Part shown: positions 1-27,648 of the stretch, piece after piece
Layout of the letters: each line of letters starts with the position of its first letter
Numbering within the stretch: the first letter of the stretch is position 1
Source: an uncultured Tateyamaria sp.
Lineage (GTDB): Bacteria; Pseudomonadota; Alphaproteobacteria; Rhodobacterales; Rhodobacteraceae
Assembly (NCBI RefSeq): GCF_947504105.1
Contig: NZ_CANNGP010000009.1
Span: 1 to 64,000, forward strand
Direction of reading: 5' to 3'
DNA: 64,000 nucleotides
Notes under the pieces: model-generated
What the model was told of the DNA's origin: nothing
The model's input: the letters and a program-made list of their open reading frames with translations, nothing else
Database searches by the model: none
Position numbers and translations under genes: made by a program

Positions 1-168
1 CATCGAACTCGCAAATGCATTGGTCAAAGCAGACAGGCTATGGATGCAAAACCGTACTTGAACAAGACGGATACTCACTAAATTTTGCATATTGACCTGT
101 CGAAAAGATTGAATATTGTGCTGTATACAATTTTGGCAGCAGTGTTTATCCATAGCAAGGGAAAGAGC

Positions 169-10103: not shown

Positions 10104-10204
10104 TAGCTGGTGCACCGGCGTATCTGATCTGATCCATACCGTTCAACCGTTGATGCCATGGGTATCTAGTCGCGTTCGAGAAACAGCGCGATGCCCATGT
10201 GGAG

Positions 10205-11298
10205 TAGCCCCCTGAAAGTGGTCCAACAACTGGGATAGAACCACGAGATATGCCAATGGAGCAATACCACGCGCTCTACAATCTGGCAGAACTCGTTGAG
10301 CCGGTCAGGCGGCACTGTTCTACGAGTTCTCGCTGGAAGATCATGTGCCCCAAGATCACCTGCTGCGCTCGATTGATCGGTTCGTTGATCTGGAAGGTAT
10401 TCGGGCGTATCTCGCAGACTTCTACAGCCACACGAGCCGTTCCGGCTGTGAGGCGATTGTCCAATCGCCATTGCCATCACATCCGATTGAACGCGGCAGG
10501 CCAGGACCAGGCCTGTTGGCTCATGTGTTGGTCAGCAAATATGCCGATCACCTGCCGCTCTATCGCCAAAGCCAAATCTATGACCGTGAAGGCATTGATC
10601 TGGATCGTTCCACGATGGCCGATGGGGTTGGCCGTTCAACGGCACTTCTTGAACCTTTAGGGGCTGGGCGCATGCGGATGAATGCTCTGGCTTCAACGGA
10701 TTGTTCGGTGAGGACGAGGCGGATGAGATGGCCTGCATGGCACATGTGCGCCGCAAATTCGTTGATGTCTTCGCGTCCCAGAGCAACGCGACCGTCGAGC
10801 AAGCCATCCGCCGGATCGCGGAACTCTATGCTGTAGAGAAAGAGGCACGCGGCAAACAACCCGAGGAACACATTGCATTGCGCCAAGCGAGGGCCAAGCC
10901 CGTCTTCGATGAGCTCGAAGTCTGGTTGCACGCGCAACTGCCAAAAATATCAGGCAAGTCACCATTGGCTTAGGCCATCCGCTACGCCCTTGGCCGGATG
11001 CCGAAAGCGCGGCCATACCTTAAGCATGGCTATCTGGAACTCGACAACAACACAGCCGAACGTGCCGTGAAACCTGTAGCCACCAGCCGGAAAAACTGGA
11101 CGTTCGCAGGTTCCGAAGGTGGTGGAAAAGCCATGGCCATCGCATTCACCCTGATCGAAACCGCCAAACTGAACGACGTTGATCCCCAAGCCTGGCTCAC
11201 GTGGGTCCTGGGCCAAATCGCCGATCACAAGATCACACGTTTCGACGAACTCCTCCCCTGGCGTTACGCTGCAAAAGCAGCGTAACAAGACCACTTCC
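10205..11298 (+). pseudogene. Degraded IS66-family transposase element
   Basis: Transposase spread over three frames (10345-10836, 10701-10973 ending in an internal TAG, 10998-11285). Contains YAVEKEARGKQPEEHIALRQARAKPV and [64 protein letters not shown]. Imperfect terminal inverted repeats ccccctgaaagtggtc / gaccacttccgggac. Confidence 0.75.
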
Positions 11299-11502: not shown

Positions 11503-12126
11503 TCAGCTCGTGCCGCTGAGGAGCATGTAAACTGCAGCGGCTCCAAAGAAAGACGCAAAGACTGCTTCAAAGCCTCGACGACCCTTCAGATACATGCCGG
11601 TCATTGTCTGACTAGAAAAGAGCAGTGCGTAGGTCGTAACAATCGTGAAGTTAATGGCGACACAGGTGCCAATGATCCAAAGGATCGAATGCACGTTACC
11701 GCCGGGTCTCATACCTATGGCAATAATGGAACCCCAAAATATCACAGCTTTGGGGTTTGTGAGGTGTATAAATGCACCCAAGCTCCAAGCCGCCACATGG
11801 GAGGCGACACCAGTATCTTTGACTTCTATTTCCTTTGCACGGGTCGCAGATCGTGCGGATTTAGAACTGAGCCAGAGCAAGTAACCTGCGCCAGCGTAAC
11901 GAATAATTTCCACTAACCATTGGTTGGTGGCAAGGATCGCACCGAAGCCTAATGCCGCGAAAATTGCCCAAGACATTGAGCCTGTGGTGACACCCCATGC
12001 GAGTGCGAGGCCCAAGCTTCGGGTTCTCTGCATCGAGGTGCCTGCGATCGCGAGCGTCGCTGGTCCGGGTGTTAATCCTCCCAAAAGCGAAGCACCTATA
12101 ACAATCCAGAAGTTCACGTATTCCAT
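11503..12126 (-). CDS. LysE-family amino-acid/metabolite exporter, last gene of the RiPP-like operon
   Basis: LTPGPATLAIAGTSMQRTRSLGLALAWGVTTG and HLTNPKAVIFWGSI LysE/RhtB motifs; 70 bp downstream of the M17 gene, same strand. Confidence 0.8.
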   Translation of the reverse strand: MEYVNFWIVIGASLLGGLTPGPATLAIAGTSMQRTRSLGLALAWGVTTGSMSWAIFAALGFGAILATNQWLVEIIRYAGAGYLLWLSSKSARSATRAKEIEVKDTGVASHVAAWSLGAFIHLTNPKAVIFWGSIIAIGMRPGGNVHSILWIIGTCVAINFTIVTTYALLFSSQTMTGMYLKGRRGFEAVFASFFGAAAVYMLLSGTS

Positions 12127-12195: not shown

Positions 12196-13665
12196 CTAAG
12201 CCGGTTTTTCCGTTCGCATAAGATCTAATAGCGTTAAAACGCCAGCGCCGCTCGCCCAACCGGGGCTTTCAGCAGTGCGTCTTGTGTTCATGCCGTTAGA
12301 CCCAATGTCCATATGGATCCACGGTATCGAGCCAGCGAACTCTCGCAGAAACAACGCTGCTGTGATCGCTCCTGGCCCTTCGTAGCTGAAGTGCTTTAAG
12401 TCAGCACTTTCACTCTTCAGATGGGTCAGATAGCAGTCATCCAAGGGCATTTCCCAGACTTTCTCGCCTGCCACATGAGCACTCGCACGCAGAGATTCGC
12501 TCAACGCACGATCGTTTGAGAAGAAACCGGCGATATCATTGCCAAGGGCGGACAGCATCGTTCCCGTCAGGGTGCCAATGTCGATCATCGCTCGTGGCGG
12601 ACTGTTGGCTGAGACCCAACTCATGATATCTGCCAAGATCAAGCGACCCTCGGCGTCCGTATTAGTGACCTCAACAGTCGTGCCATTACACATAGTCAAA
12701 ACGTCAGCTGGTCGAAACGCATTCGATCCAACAACATTTTCTGCGACACCGATATAGGCGGATACGTTCCCCTTGGATTCGGTGATCGCAGCCGCCAAGA
12801 CTGCGCCAACTGCAATAGCCCCGCCTGCCATGTCGCCCTTCATCTCATCCATCCCTTTCCCGGGTTGGATGCATAGGCCACCCGCATCAAATGTGACTGC
12901 CTTGCCAATAAGTGAGATTAGGTCGGGTTTTTCGCCTTCTGGCTTCCAGCGGAGCACGATCATACGCGAGGGCTCACAGGAAGCCCGGCCTACTGCGACA
13001 AACGCTCTAAGACCGAGTTCAGTTAGCTGCCTCTCGTTGTAGACCTGAATATCGAGATCAGGGATAGCAGCTGCCTTCTCTGCAACAGCTCTCTCAAAAC
13101 CGGCAGGTGACAGGATATTTGGCGGCGCAGAAATGAGGTCTCGGACAAAGTGAACAATTTCAGCGATGAGACAGGCGCGCTTAACAGCGTTACGGTCAAC
13201 ATTGGAATGATGGGGGAGTGCGACGCTAATGCAAGGAATGGATCCATCATCCATCGAAGTAACCTTGGTCTGCCTGTACAAACCAAGAAAGAGACCAAGG
13301 AAGAAGGAAAATGTGCCATCATGATGATGTTCAAACTCGTTGACCAGTCCTGAGTTCAAGGCGATCTCGCAATCCTCAACCCTCTTTAGGATGGTTTCTG
13401 CACAGTTAGCCCCGAGACGACGCAACATGTCCGTGTCATCGTCACCTGCGATTGTGACAAAGGTATAAGTTGAAAGGCACGTTTCGTCGGGAACAGAAAT
13501 GTCTTTCGCCGTTGTTTGACTAAAGTTCAGATTTGCTAACGGAAGAATTTCTGCGATTGATGAGCCATTATGAAGGTCTGCAAACTCATGTCCAGATGAC
13601 GGCATGTGCAGCGGTACAATAGTTGTATGTGCGACGTCGCAAGGTGCGAACGAAATGTTCATCAT
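12196..13665 (-). CDS. M17 leucyl aminopeptidase family protein
   Basis: LIGKAVTFDAGGLCIQPGKGMDEMKGDMAGGA and NTDAEGRLILADIMSW M17 signatures; start overlaps the upstream stop (TAATGATG). Confidence 0.9.
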   Translation of the reverse strand: MMNISFAPCDVAHTTIVPLHMPSSGHEFADLHNGSSIAEILPLANLNFSQTTAKDISVPDETCLSTYTFVTIAGDDDTDMLRRLGANCAETILKRVEDCEIALNSGLVNEFEHHHDGTFSFFLGLFLGLYRQTKVTSMDDGSIPCISVALPHHSNVDRNAVKRACLIAEIVHFVRDLISAPPNILSPAGFERAVAEKAAAIPDLDIQVYNERQLTELGLRAFVAVGRASCEPSRMIVLRWKPEGEKPDLISLIGKAVTFDAGGLCIQPGKGMDEMKGDMAGGAIAVGAVLAAAITESKGNVSAYIGVAENVVGSNAFRPADVLTMCNGTTVEVTNTDAEGRLILADIMSWVSANSPPRAMIDIGTLTGTMLSALGNDIAGFFSNDRALSESLRASAHVAGEKVWEMPLDDCYLTHLKSESADLKHFSYEGPGAITAALFLREFAGSIPWIHMDIGSNGMNTRRTAESPGWASGAGVLTLLDLMRTEKPA

Positions 13666-14636
13666 TATTGTATTACTCCATATGCTCGAGGGTTAGTGTA
13701 CCGCGACGTCTGCCCATACCCTGGTGTGAACATTGCTGGGTCGAACCCTGGTGATGGCTCCGCAGCGTCCACGACAGAAATGACGAGAATGTCGCGGTGG
13801 CGACTTGGCGCGGGAAGGCCGGCGCGATGCAAGCAAAGCTGCGTGTTTCCTACAAGTATACTACCTACTGGACCAACATGTTGTATCCAACGCGCATCTG
13901 GAAAATTGTCTTGAACCTCAAAATCTGCGTCCTCCCGTCCGTTAAATTCTTCTGACGAGAGCGCTTGTGCAGTATCTTTTCTTGAAAGGATCGAGAAGGG
14001 CCCATCGTCAAGTGTGACATCGCTGATATTGATAAATACCTTATGCAAATCACTGCGTCGTTGATCGCAATGCCACCAATTCGCATATACCTCGAAGTTG
14101 GCTTTCGGGGGTGGAGCAATCGTGCGGTAGCATTCGATGTCGACAATACGGACGCTGTTGCCAACACAACCTTCAATGACCGGCCAGAACTTCGCGTTCA
14201 AAATTTTCGGCAGTCCCGGCAGGTTTTCGGGATTTTCTATCCTTCTCCCAACTTCGCAGCATGGGAAGCGTTCACCAAGTAAATCCAGGTTGTCCCCGTG
14301 AGGTTCGGATAACGAAGGGTCCGCAACTGCAGACTGAAAGCCCGCTTGTAGCTCCTTCAAAGACCTTGCATCATGCTCAACGCACACGGTGCCATAGCCC
14401 AAACGTTTGTAATGCCTTGCTTGGTCAAGCTCAGCAGGTTTTTGACGGAGGCGAACGTATGACCCGTTCAGCCTCCCCAATATGTTCAGGGTTGCCGGTG
14501 TCGTGTTGCCGAAAACCTGGCGTCCAAGCTTGACGTCTTGATACCCCAGCCAGTTTGCCAACTTGGCTCCTAGGTACTTATCAAGTCCCGTGCGGTAATA
14601 TTCGTTTCCAGAGCTGTGTTGTTTGAATCTTCCCAT
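13665..14636 (-). CDS. 2-oxoglutarate/Fe(II) oxygenase-like protein (phytanoyl-CoA dioxygenase-like)
   Basis: Putative HxD...H...R facial triad: WWHCDQRRSDLHKVFINISDVTLDDGPFSIL ... GSILVGNTQLCLHRAGLPAPSRHRDILVI. ATG at 14636 is 4 nt past the radical SAM stop. Confidence 0.65.
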   Translation of the reverse strand: MGRFKQHSSGNEYYRTGLDKYLGAKLANWLGYQDVKLGRQVFGNTTPATLNILGRLNGSYVRLRQKPAELDQARHYKRLGYGTVCVEHDARSLKELQAGFQSAVADPSLSEPHGDNLDLLGERFPCCEVGRRIENPENLPGLPKILNAKFWPVIEGCVGNSVRIVDIECYRTIAPPPKANFEVYANWWHCDQRRSDLHKVFINISDVTLDDGPFSILSRKDTAQALSSEEFNGREDADFEVQDNFPDARWIQHVGPVGSILVGNTQLCLHRAGLPAPSRHRDILVISVVDAAEPSPGFDPAMFTPGYGQTSRYTNPRAYGVIQ

Positions 14637-14640
14637 AGCC

Positions 14641-15789
14641 TTATGTTGAAGCTTCCAAAACTTGTTGCCGCCTGCGAACCGCGTCATCAACGTGCGTTAC
14701 CAGCTTGAGAATGTCGCGACAGTAGACATTCGGGTTACGGAAACCCTTGGACAAAGAAAACCGTCCCGCCAAATCTCCACCGTTACACACGTGTGAGATC
14801 GCGCAACTTTCACAGACTGGCGCGATACTATCTGCTCCAAGGTCGACGAGGTAGGAATTGACGAGATCATAAGCGTCGTCTAAGCTATCCGTCGTGATGT
14901 TCAAACCAAGGTTGGTCAAACCATCTGCTGTCACTTTCAGCGCGTCGCCTATTTCGAGCGCGCCGTCTGTCTCAACTACAACTATGTTGCGCCCACTTTC
15001 CCCAAAGCTTTCTGTCGATGAGGCTCCACCATTCAAAAGATGAATAAGGGATTCAAAAACGACGACACGTACAGATGCCTCACTCTGGCTCCAACGCTTG
15101 AATGCCTCAATCAGCCAATCGCCCACTGATGTCTCTGGAGAGTCGGGCTCTTTCCAAGGCGGGTGATCATCGTGGGTGTATAGAGGAAATAAGAAATTGA
15201 GTGCAGGAGGATGAAATTTCGTTAGGTAGTCGAATGTGGCTGTTGCATCAGATGCCGGATCGAGAACACACAAGAACCCACTAAATGCGTCTGGGTGATG
15301 ATCCATCAGGATCCCCACCCCTTCTTCAACGCGGCTTGCTGAGCCCAAACCTCTATGGTCCAGCCGAGCCTTGTCATTGACATCAGGTGTTCCATCGAGG
15401 CTAACGCCCACCCCGACGCCGTATTCCGCCAGAATGCCGCAGTTTACCTTGTTGAGCAGAGTTCCATTGGTCTGAATAGTGAGAGAGACATCGATACCGG
15501 TTTCCGCAAATGTCGCTCTGATAAGCGAACAAAAACGCCGGAGTACTTCATTGCCGATCAAAAGCGGTTCCCCGCCATGAAGGGCGATGTGTATCCTAGG
15601 AAGCTGCTTCTTCTCAGCGTACGCCCTTATTTCCTCGATGGTGCGTTCGAATGTGTAAAGATCCATCTTTTTTGGCTTTTTACGCCACGTGGTGTCTGAC
15701 TTGTTGTACATGTAGCAGTACGTACAATTCAGGTTGCACCGGCTATGTATCTTGAGGACGAATCCATTGAATGCTTTGACGGGAGTCAT
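14641..15789 (-). CDS. Radical SAM/SPASM peptide maturase, FxsB/GrrM/XyeB (cyclophane-forming)-like
   Basis: CxxxCxxC motif SRCNLNCTYCYMYNKSD; HGGEPLL; SPASM-type CESCAISHVCNGGDLAGRFSLSKGFRNPNVYCRDIL, resembling the CGGGYL..RYS..NGFDNPSVYC..L ending of that maturase group. Confidence 0.85.
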   Translation of the reverse strand: MTPVKAFNGFVLKIHSRCNLNCTYCYMYNKSDTTWRKKPKKMDLYTFERTIEEIRAYAEKKQLPRIHIALHGGEPLLIGNEVLRRFCSLIRATFAETGIDVSLTIQTNGTLLNKVNCGILAEYGVGVGVSLDGTPDVNDKARLDHRGLGSASRVEEGVGILMDHHPDAFSGFLCVLDPASDATATFDYLTKFHPPALNFLFPLYTHDDHPPWKEPDSPETSVGDWLIEAFKRWSQSEASVRVVVFESLIHLLNGGASSTESFGESGRNIVVVETDGALEIGDALKVTADGLTNLGLNITTDSLDDAYDLVNSYLVDLGADSIAPVCESCAISHVCNGGDLAGRFSLSKGFRNPNVYCRDILKLVTHVDDAVRRRQQVLEAST

Positions 15790-15824: not shown

Positions 15825-15846
15825 GGGGAGATGCTTCCACCTCCCC
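15825..15846 (-). terminator. Hairpin between precursor and maturase genes (possible attenuator)
   Basis: Minus-strand GGGGAGGTG GAAG CATCTCCCC (9-bp stem with one G.U, 4-nt loop) followed by TTCTTTAATTT. Confidence 0.5.
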
Positions 15847-15855
15847 GACCATCTT

Positions 15856-16056
15856 TTAGTCTAACGAACGTGCATGCCCTTCAGTTTGCAGCGAAAAAGC
15901 ATGTCCGGCGAGCGAACGCGCATGGCCAGCTTCAATTAACCGTGCGGATCCCGCTTCGAGAGAGCGCGCGTGCGCTTCCGGTTTACTCAGACTGCGGGCA
16001 TGTCCGGTGTCGGAAAATCCGGTTCCCGCAATAGCAGTGTCAAGGTTTGTGTACAT
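15856..16056 (-). CDS. Candidate multi-core RiPP precursor peptide (66 aa) with six HARSL-type repeats
   Basis: MYTNLDTAIAGTGFSDTGHARSLSKPEAHARSLEAGSARLIEAGHARSLAGHAFSLQTEGHARSLD. RBS AAGGAGT 6-7 nt before ATG 16056; immediately upstream of the radical SAM gene, same strand. Confidence 0.85.
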   Translation of the reverse strand: MYTNLDTAIAGTGFSDTGHARSLSKPEAHARSLEAGSARLIEAGHARSLAGHAFSLQTEGHARSLD

Positions 16057-16299
16057 TGTATTACTCCTTATTGGGAAGAAAAGGAGCCATCGATGACACA
16101 ACCAAAGATAGCATTCAAGCATTCGATTCTCTACGTTTGGCTTCTTTGGTCGCAACTTTTCGCCGGTTTTTTGCGAAACTGTCTAGTTTGCCTGGCATTT
16201 AATCATGTTTCACTGATTGACACTCTTTGGTGTCCATCAATTAAGCAGTTCTTAGAAAAAACGTGTAATGACTGTCGAATGGTAAAGCTATTCGACCGT

Positions 16300-16608
16300 C
16301 AATCACAAGAAGGTCGAGCGGCTCTGGCGGGAAGAGGGATTACAGCTTCCGCAGCGCCACAAGAAGCGCAAGCGGCTCTACCACAAGGACAGCTCGATCA
16401 TCCGATTGAGGCCAACGCATCCGAACCACGTCTGGGCCATCGACTTCGTCCACGACAAGCTCAGCAATGGGCGCAGTTACAAGATGCTGACGGTTCTCGA
16501 TGAGTTCACGCGGCAGGCCTTGGCTGTTGTGGTCCGCACAAAGATGGGTGCCGACGATGTTCTCGAAGCACTCTATCCGCTCCTGCTGCGCCACGGTTCC
16601 CCAGAGTA
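16300..16608 (+). pseudogene. Internal fragment of an IS3-family OrfB transposase
   Basis: Reads VNHKKVERLWREEGLQLPQRHKKRKRLYHKDSSIIRLRPTHPNHVWAIDFVHDKLSNGRSYKMLTVLDEFTRQALAV...LRHGSPEY then breaks off. Confidence 0.8.
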
Positions 16609-16804
16609 TACACGCGGAACCGCCGCAACTCGTTTGCTTAACGCAGGCCTGACACTTGCTGAGATCGCCAATTACATGGGGTGGTCTGTCCGCTATGCCG
16701 CTCAGGTCATCGAGTACTACGCGACTGTTTCGCCAAGTGAATCTGAGGCGGTTTTGGCCAAGCTAGAAGCCGCAGTGGAGCGAGAAAATGCGCTTTACTT
16801 GTAA
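16609..16804 (+). pseudogene. C-terminal remnant of a tyrosine recombinase (phage/ICE integrase), fused in frame to the IS3 fragment
   Basis: RGTAATRLLNAGLTLAEIANYMGWSVRYAAQVIEYYATVSPSESEAVLAKLEAAVERENALYL resembles an integrase C-terminus; ends 63 bp from the tRNA-Cys-derived repeat. Confidence 0.7.
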
Positions 16805-27574: not shown

Positions 27575-27622
27575 TGGAGGCGAGTACCGGAATCGAACCG
27601 GTGTACACGGATTTGCAATCCG
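27575..27622. repeat. attR: 48-bp perfect direct repeat inside tRNA-Cys
   Basis: Identical to 16867-16914. Confidence 0.92.
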
Positions 27623-27648
27623 CTGCGTCACCACTCCGCCAACTCGCC
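27575..27648 (-). tRNA. tRNA-Cys (anticodon GCA), CCA encoded
   Basis: Reverse complement GGCGAGTTGGCGGAGTGGTGACGCAGCGGATTGCAAATCCGTGTACACCGGTTCGATTCCGGTACTCGCCTCCA: 7-bp acceptor stem, GGTTCGATTCC T-arm, U73, TTGCAAA anticodon loop. Confidence 0.95.

Follow-up and report, generated by a model that had tools for sequence, protein, structure and literature searches.

The locus raises the question of whether a 66-residue peptide built of histidine-containing hexamers, and encoded next to a radical SAM/SPASM gene in the window (the whole 64-kb stretch of DNA that was analysed), is a genuine RiPP precursor, and what the adjacent enzyme would make from it. A preliminary description had proposed an undescribed class with six tandem HARSL units. 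The coordinates it gave for the precursor gene were correct, but they yield the peptide (P0001; MYTNLDTAIAGTGFSDTGHARSLSKPEAHARSLEAGSARLIEAGHARSLAGHAFSLQTEGHARSLD) solely on the minus strand, a point left unstated, the plus strand over the same interval being blocked by stop codons (Table 1). Six hexamers do align in the peptide, but His is present in only five of them (HAR four times, HAF once), and the third, GSARLI, is degenerate, with Ser replacing His and no aromatic residue. Successive unit histidines are separated by 10, 16, 7, and 9 residues, in agreement with the range of 7–16 noted earlier, and a single residue, Asp, was found after the last unit, as had also been noted. The linkers between units include EAG, TEG, and KPEA. 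Neither Cys nor Trp occurs in P0001, and His is the sole aromatic residue common to the units, which bears out the earlier view of it as the aromatic residue available for modification. The computed monoisotopic mass of the unmodified peptide is 6871.40 Da. Its start codon is preceded by a good ribosome-binding site (AATAAGGAGTAATACA-ATG, core AAGGAG), likewise recognized from the start, and a 17-nt stretch spanning this site, ATA[A/T]GGAGTAATACAAT on the minus strand (16055–16071), has a 16/17 copy at 13667–13683 before the start of the aminopeptidase gene. Within the island, P0001 was the sole ORF of its kind with a ribosome-binding site, and no second, better precursor was present among the island's ORFs.

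Table 1. Positions of the precursor, its operon and its surroundings in the window, and of tandem cores beside related maturases (positions with an L number refer to those loci; unit positions are residues of P0001)
Feature	Position	Strand	Description
Interrupted IS66-type transposase gene	10166-11285 (about 10.2-11.3 kb)		Left of operon; housekeeping genes farther out
P0005, LysE/RhtB-type exporter	11503..12126	(-)	207 aa; PF01810, E 1.6e-25
P0004, M17 leucyl aminopeptidase family protein	12196..13665	(-)	489 aa; PF00883, E 5.9e-101; start overlaps P0003 stop
P0003, predicted 2-oxoglutarate/Fe(II) oxygenase	13665..14690	(-)	341 aa; divergent PhyH-like; overlaps maturase gene end
P0002, radical SAM/SPASM maturase	14641..15789	(-)	382 aa; placed in FxsB/YhhB/ChlB superfamily
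Stem-loop, 9 bp	15825..15846	(-)	GGGGAGGTGGAAGCATCTCCCC then TTCTTTAATT; between precursor and maturase; G+C stem, T-rich tail
P0001, precursor peptide	15856..16056	(-), read 16056→15856	66 aa; translation
P0001 N-terminus	first 17 aa		MYTNLDTAIAGTGFSDT, then repeat units
P0001 units	residues 18-23, 28-33, 36-41, 44-49, 51-56, 60-65		GHARSL, AHARSL, GSARLI, GHARSL, GHAFSL, GHARSL; D66 last
Ribosome-binding region	16057..16072	(-)	ATAAGGAGTAATACA; precedes precursor ATG
Transposase fragment, distinct from the IS66-type gene and fused with other sequence	16300-16804 (16.4-16.8 kb also given)		Right of operon
Prophage	17-27 kb		Terminase and capsid genes; beyond right transposase fragment
tRNA-Cys	27575-27648		Right side, listed with prophage
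Tandem core, Yinghuangia soli	L032:5363-5749		(S)GFSSYTEAP, seven copies; adjoins related maturase
Tandem core, Nocardia carnea	L024:5327-5821		GNFSSFIE, three copies; adjoins related maturase
Tandem core, an alphaproteobacterium	L007:2713-2913		SFDL, five copies; adjoins related maturase

A chance repeat, or one read from the wrong strand, was ruled out by codon analysis together with shuffling. Five copies of HA[RF]SL are observed, compared with at most one in any of 100,000 shuffles of P0001, and not even one copy occurs in the other frames of the 64-kb window. The codons of the units are strongly divergent (e.g., GGA CAT GCC CGC AGT CTG vs. GGG CAT GCA CGT TCG TTA), with pairwise differences over the six units of 27%, 27%, and 74% at the first, second, and third codon positions, respectively, and a pN/pS of 0.23 among the five His units. 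Of the 5,329 neutral simulations whose nucleotide divergence equalled or exceeded that of the real repeat, none was as conserved at the protein level. Because the units keep their protein motif with differing codons, these comparisons indicate that the repeat has diverged silently while the motif was maintained by selection acting on the peptide.

All five genes of the operon lie on the minus strand in the order P0001, P0002, P0003, P0004, and P0005. The radical SAM gene follows the peptide on the same strand, as reported before, with 66 nt between the P0001 stop codon and the P0002 ATG, and the genes for P0002, P0003, and P0004 overlap where they join. The stem-loop between precursor and maturase (z-score -1.8) may possibly act as a partial terminator. 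As a short ORF at the head of an operon, followed by a stem-loop with a T-rich tail, P0001 could also be taken for a cis-acting leader (attenuator) that senses His and Arg codons before a terminator-like hairpin; with its His codons unclustered at 7–16 residues apart, its units conserved as whole protein segments, and terminator-like sites no commoner in the region than in shuffles, we regard this as the least probable of the explanations considered. The G+C content of the island is 0.49–0.54, vs. 0.58–0.62 for the prophage. Insertion-sequence remnants on both sides, with the prophage beyond one of them, and the lack of an ortholog among the 19 other genomes of the genus that were searched, would fit a decayed, unexpressed island, a reading that is highly improbable for five intact genes with their catalytic motifs present and repeats that retain protein-level constraint. 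An involvement in anti-phage defence was rejected, as PADLOC yielded just weak viperin (radical SAM) matches. We conclude that the multi-core precursor is genuine and under selection and that its RiPP operon, whose product, cross-links, and role are predicted, is complete; P0001 is very probably the precursor for the adjacent radical SAM/SPASM enzyme, as first proposed.

In P0002, the CxxxCxxC motif (C18, C22, C25) and the SPASM cysteines (326, 329, 335, 357) are intact. Among the NCBIfam models, it matched FxsB (TIGR04269; 349.8 bits, E 1.7e-104) and YhhB (NF041707; 326.3 bits, E 2.2e-97), in both cases below the curated cut-offs (370 and 445, respectively), followed in third place by XyeB with 143.9 bits; it also matched models of further peptide maturases, e.g., that of dynobactin DynA (E 1.1e-33). 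The best PDB sequence match was the radical SAM domain of ChlB (E 6.4e-68), and the structure model, built with 15 sequences (pLDDT 87.8), superposed on the ChlB-leader complex (9gm3) with a TM-score of 0.91 and an rmsd of 2.3 Å. Sequence and structure model together assign P0002 to the three-residue-cyclophane synthases of the FxsB/YhhB/ChlB superfamily, but to neither of the curated families FxsB and YhhB. Its closest relatives among the matches listed are 40–41% identical, and no ortholog was found in the sampled genomes of its own genus, family, order, class, and phylum (overlapping samples, 1,997 genomes in total, one sample of 399 having been queried with P0003 instead of P0002). In a 104-row tree, P0002 grouped with sequences of Spirirestis, Microcoleus, Trichodesmium, and Paraburkholderia and one same-family sequence (support 92/89, long branch), a position that received weaker support in a 40-row tree. 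Placement inside the actinobacterial FxsB was rejected (p-AU 0.011), neither a grouping with the His/cyanobacterial sequences (p-AU 0.325) nor one with YhhB (p-AU 0.163) was rejected, and we are unsure of the exact position.

The chemistry of related enzymes suggests what P0002 may do to the units. According to PMC11002830, HaaB and ScaB form a C2(His)-Cβ(Ala) bond on His-Ala-Ala, YhhB links the Cβ of Arg either to C2 of His or to C3 of Tyr, and MscB joins Phe to Ser. H-A-R is predicted to be the substrate motif of P0002 because HaaB and YhhB, as enzymes of this group, are reported to connect His C2 with the Cβ of the residue at i+2 (Ala and Arg, respectively), and by the same chemistry of HaaB, ScaB, and YhhB, the three-residue cross-link from His(i) to i+2 that was put forward in the preliminary description is the right prediction. 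Two features that define triceptides were found, namely a precursor gene that adjoins a radical SAM/SPASM 3-CyFE homologue and aromatic-x-x cores in the precursor, whereas the FxSxx-COOH core of FxsB peptides was absent, the units being HA[RF]SL. A sactipeptide or ranthipeptide was ruled out, since P0001 has no Cys that could donate a thioether. By analogy with the characterized enzymes, the locus is probably a triceptide system of the His type, multi-core, and with a short leader.

P0001 could instead be a radical SAM substrate undergoing other chemistry, such as a C-N bond through the imidazole, epimerization, or attachment to the i+3 or i+4 residue (Ser or Leu). SPASM peptide maturases are chemically varied, the DynA match points in the same direction, and the units conserve Ser and Leu to the same degree as Ala and Arg; nevertheless, the closest models, structure, and tree neighbours of P0002 are all cyclophane-forming or located beside aromatic-x-x cores, and we consider such chemistry unlikely. 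Five spaced histidines with peptide-processing and export genes alongside might also suggest a metal-binding or signalling role for a His-rich peptide whose repeats matter in themselves, modification being secondary or absent. This is very unlikely in our judgement, as metal binding needs no conserved Ala, Arg/Phe, Ser, and Leu around His, and the next gene encodes a cyclophane-type peptide maturase.

Relatives of the peptide were searched for in several collections. None of about 110 related maturases had a HARSL-like repeat next to it, no NCBIfam or Pfam family matched P0001 at E up to 1, and plasmids gave just weak matches (E of 3 or more). Elsewhere in its own genome, there were 57 matches to a degenerate pattern, with no second cluster of close ones, and among 25 matches in viral contigs, none resembled a HARSL precursor, those with HAR repeated in frame being unrelated repeats, mostly of the HARCLARQ type. 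No literature on HARSL or HAASL with radical SAM enzymes was found. Since neither an ortholog of the peptide nor a maturase more than 41% identical was found, cross-species conservation of P0001 cannot be claimed. The absence of HARSL homologues next to related maturases, which had been named beforehand as counting against the idea, does not refute it, because equivalent repeats on other aromatic triads adjoin relatives (Table 1). Three tree neighbours of P0002 adjoin His-rich cores (Microcoleus, ...RHESHSSHAEFHQRAWG; Trichodesmium, ...HTKHTSHSSHSKYSS and also ...AHTKHTSHSSHSKYSS; Spirirestis, ...YDSHGSSHSK). On plasmid p_2 of Rhizobium lusitanum (NZ_CP050304.1; locus L013:2721-3863), a "hypothetical protein" of 380 aa, in which MHDQ[T/N]HSE occurs seven times, directly precedes a radical SAM gene and a HEXXH-annotated gene, and it is probably a multi-core His precursor of great length. 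The designation as an undescribed class could not be upheld, given that the superfamily of the maturase is already known, as are three-residue cyclophanes of the His type and tandem cores beside related maturases. Because tandem-repeat cores adjoin several related maturases, multi-core precursors can be said to recur within the FxsB/YhhB/ChlB superfamily, to which HA[RF]SL adds a new motif.

Against a profile of the precursors of 16 relatives, which is dominated by their shared leader, P0001 scored -1.5 bits, vs. 3 to 40 bits for each member when left out, and the other ORFs of the island gave no match to this profile either. Judged by its sequence, P0001 is devoid of the conserved leader of FxsA-, ChlA-, and cyanobacterial-type precursors. 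As a separate observation, the same genome carries a second FxsB/YhhB-like radical SAM gene (locus L002, contig C10: 535-1599), whose precursor ends in ...MYDSHGSNHTNHSD... and is nearly unchanged in two other species of the genus (L097, L098); a 373-aa neighbour at that locus may be a HExxH-type partner.

Similarities to known systems are partial in each case. HaaA/HaaB and ScaB share the His-Ala start of the core, a radical SAM/SPASM three-residue cyclophane synthase, and the expected His(i)-to-i+2 bond; here, i+2 is Arg or Phe and there are five tandem units (HaaA/HaaB were compared through their description in PMC11002830). YhhA/YhhB (NF041707), with cores of the YDRMHHRHNR type, share the His-x-Arg triad and the matching maturase model, but the YhhA core is not arranged in tandem copies and has a longer N-terminal segment before it, and the YhhB-group maturases examined include ORFs of 716 and 725 aa, far longer than P0002. 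ChlB/ChlA (PDB 9gm3, 9gmc) provide the best structural match and, as indicated by the title of a ChlB study that PMC12636437 cites, several cyclophanes per peptide; ChlB was crystallized with a bound leader, and P0001 is without the leader that related precursors carry. FxsA/FxsB (FxSxx-COOH peptides, mostly Actinomycetota) offer the closest curated maturase model and have tandem Phe-Ser versions beside relatives, whereas P0001 has His instead of Phe and does not match their leader. The R. lusitanum protein is likewise alphaproteobacterial, and its tandem His motifs are encoded immediately ahead of a related radical SAM gene, but its triads are HDQ/HSE, the peptide is far longer, the partner is of the HExxH type, and the maturase is about 34% identical to P0002.

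The accessory proteins were examined for what they could add to a cross-linked peptide. For P0003, no match was obtained in Pfam, NCBIfam, or a PDB profile search, and a structure model from the lone sequence was uninformative (pLDDT 32). It aligned to distant alphaproteobacterial proteins at 30% identity over about 90 residues, and H207-x-D209, H288, and R299, which correspond to the HxD...H triad and the 2OG-binding Arg, were invariant when P0003 was aligned with four distant relatives; phytanoyl-CoA dioxygenase is the annotation of some proteins related to these. A HExxH-type hydroxylase was rejected, as the motif is absent. On the basis of this alignment and these residues, P0003 is likely a 2OG-Fe(II) hydroxylase, substituting for the HExxH β-hydroxylases that are known to accompany ChlB. 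Enzymes of the ChlH type are reported to β-hydroxylate His and Asp in an αKG-dependent reaction that follows cyclophane formation (PMC12636437); the logic of cyclophane formation plus 2OG-dependent hydroxylation is shared with ChlB and the αKG-HExxH hydroxylase ChlH, whereas P0003 is PhyH-like and a separate gene. A RiPP precedent for P0004 is BotP, an M17 aminopeptidase that acts in bottromycin maturation (PMC10885120). No close counterparts of P0003, P0004, and P0005 were found beside the related maturases that were fetched, and their roles in hydroxylation, trimming, and export, as well as the biological role of the product, are suggested by gene content alone.

Taken together, we consider it likely, with fairly good confidence, that the five genes form a small but complete RiPP operon, whose products are three-residue cyclophane peptides of the His type (triceptide-like) derived from a tandem-repeat precursor. 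The repeat, its selection, the operon order, the enzyme families, and the intact active-site motifs are read from sequence, while the position and number of cross-links are extrapolated from characterized relatives. After translation of the 66-aa P0001, P0002 would form one C-C bond per His unit, from the imidazole of His(i) to the Cβ of Arg (Phe in HAF) at i+2, and up to five cross-links, at -2.016 Da each, would shift the mass of P0001 from 6871.40 to 6861.32 Da. P0003 would then hydroxylate residues of the cross-linked units, host endopeptidases would cleave the linkers (EAG, TEG, KPEA), P0004 would trim the fragments to short H-A-R-S-L-type cyclophane peptides, and P0005 would export the resulting small basic products. 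Against this reading stand the lack of orthologs in the genomes searched, the two missed curated cut-offs, the uncertain tree position of P0002, the absent leader, the one unit in six without His, and a P0003 assignment drawn from about 90 residues aligned at 30% identity plus conserved motifs. A bolder version, which we put forward only tentatively and hold to be doubtful, is a leader-independent multi-core pathway in which P0002 would recognize (G/A)HA[RF]SL itself, such that one transcript would give several near-identical hydroxylated His-Arg cyclophanes, M17-trimmed and carried out of the cell as small basic molecules by the LysE/RhtB-type protein.

If the cyclophane reading is true, His-Ala-Arg/Phe would become a further core on which three-residue-cyclophane enzymes could be tested by experiment, and one short substrate would offer five natural sites together with built-in variants (HAF, and SAR without His). 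The missing family leader would make this a simple system for studying substrate recognition by such radical SAM enzymes and possibly a compact tool for the stapling of short His motifs, and a cluster in which cyclophane formation is combined with the action of a PhyH-like oxygenase, an aminopeptidase, and an exporter would represent a route to very small products.
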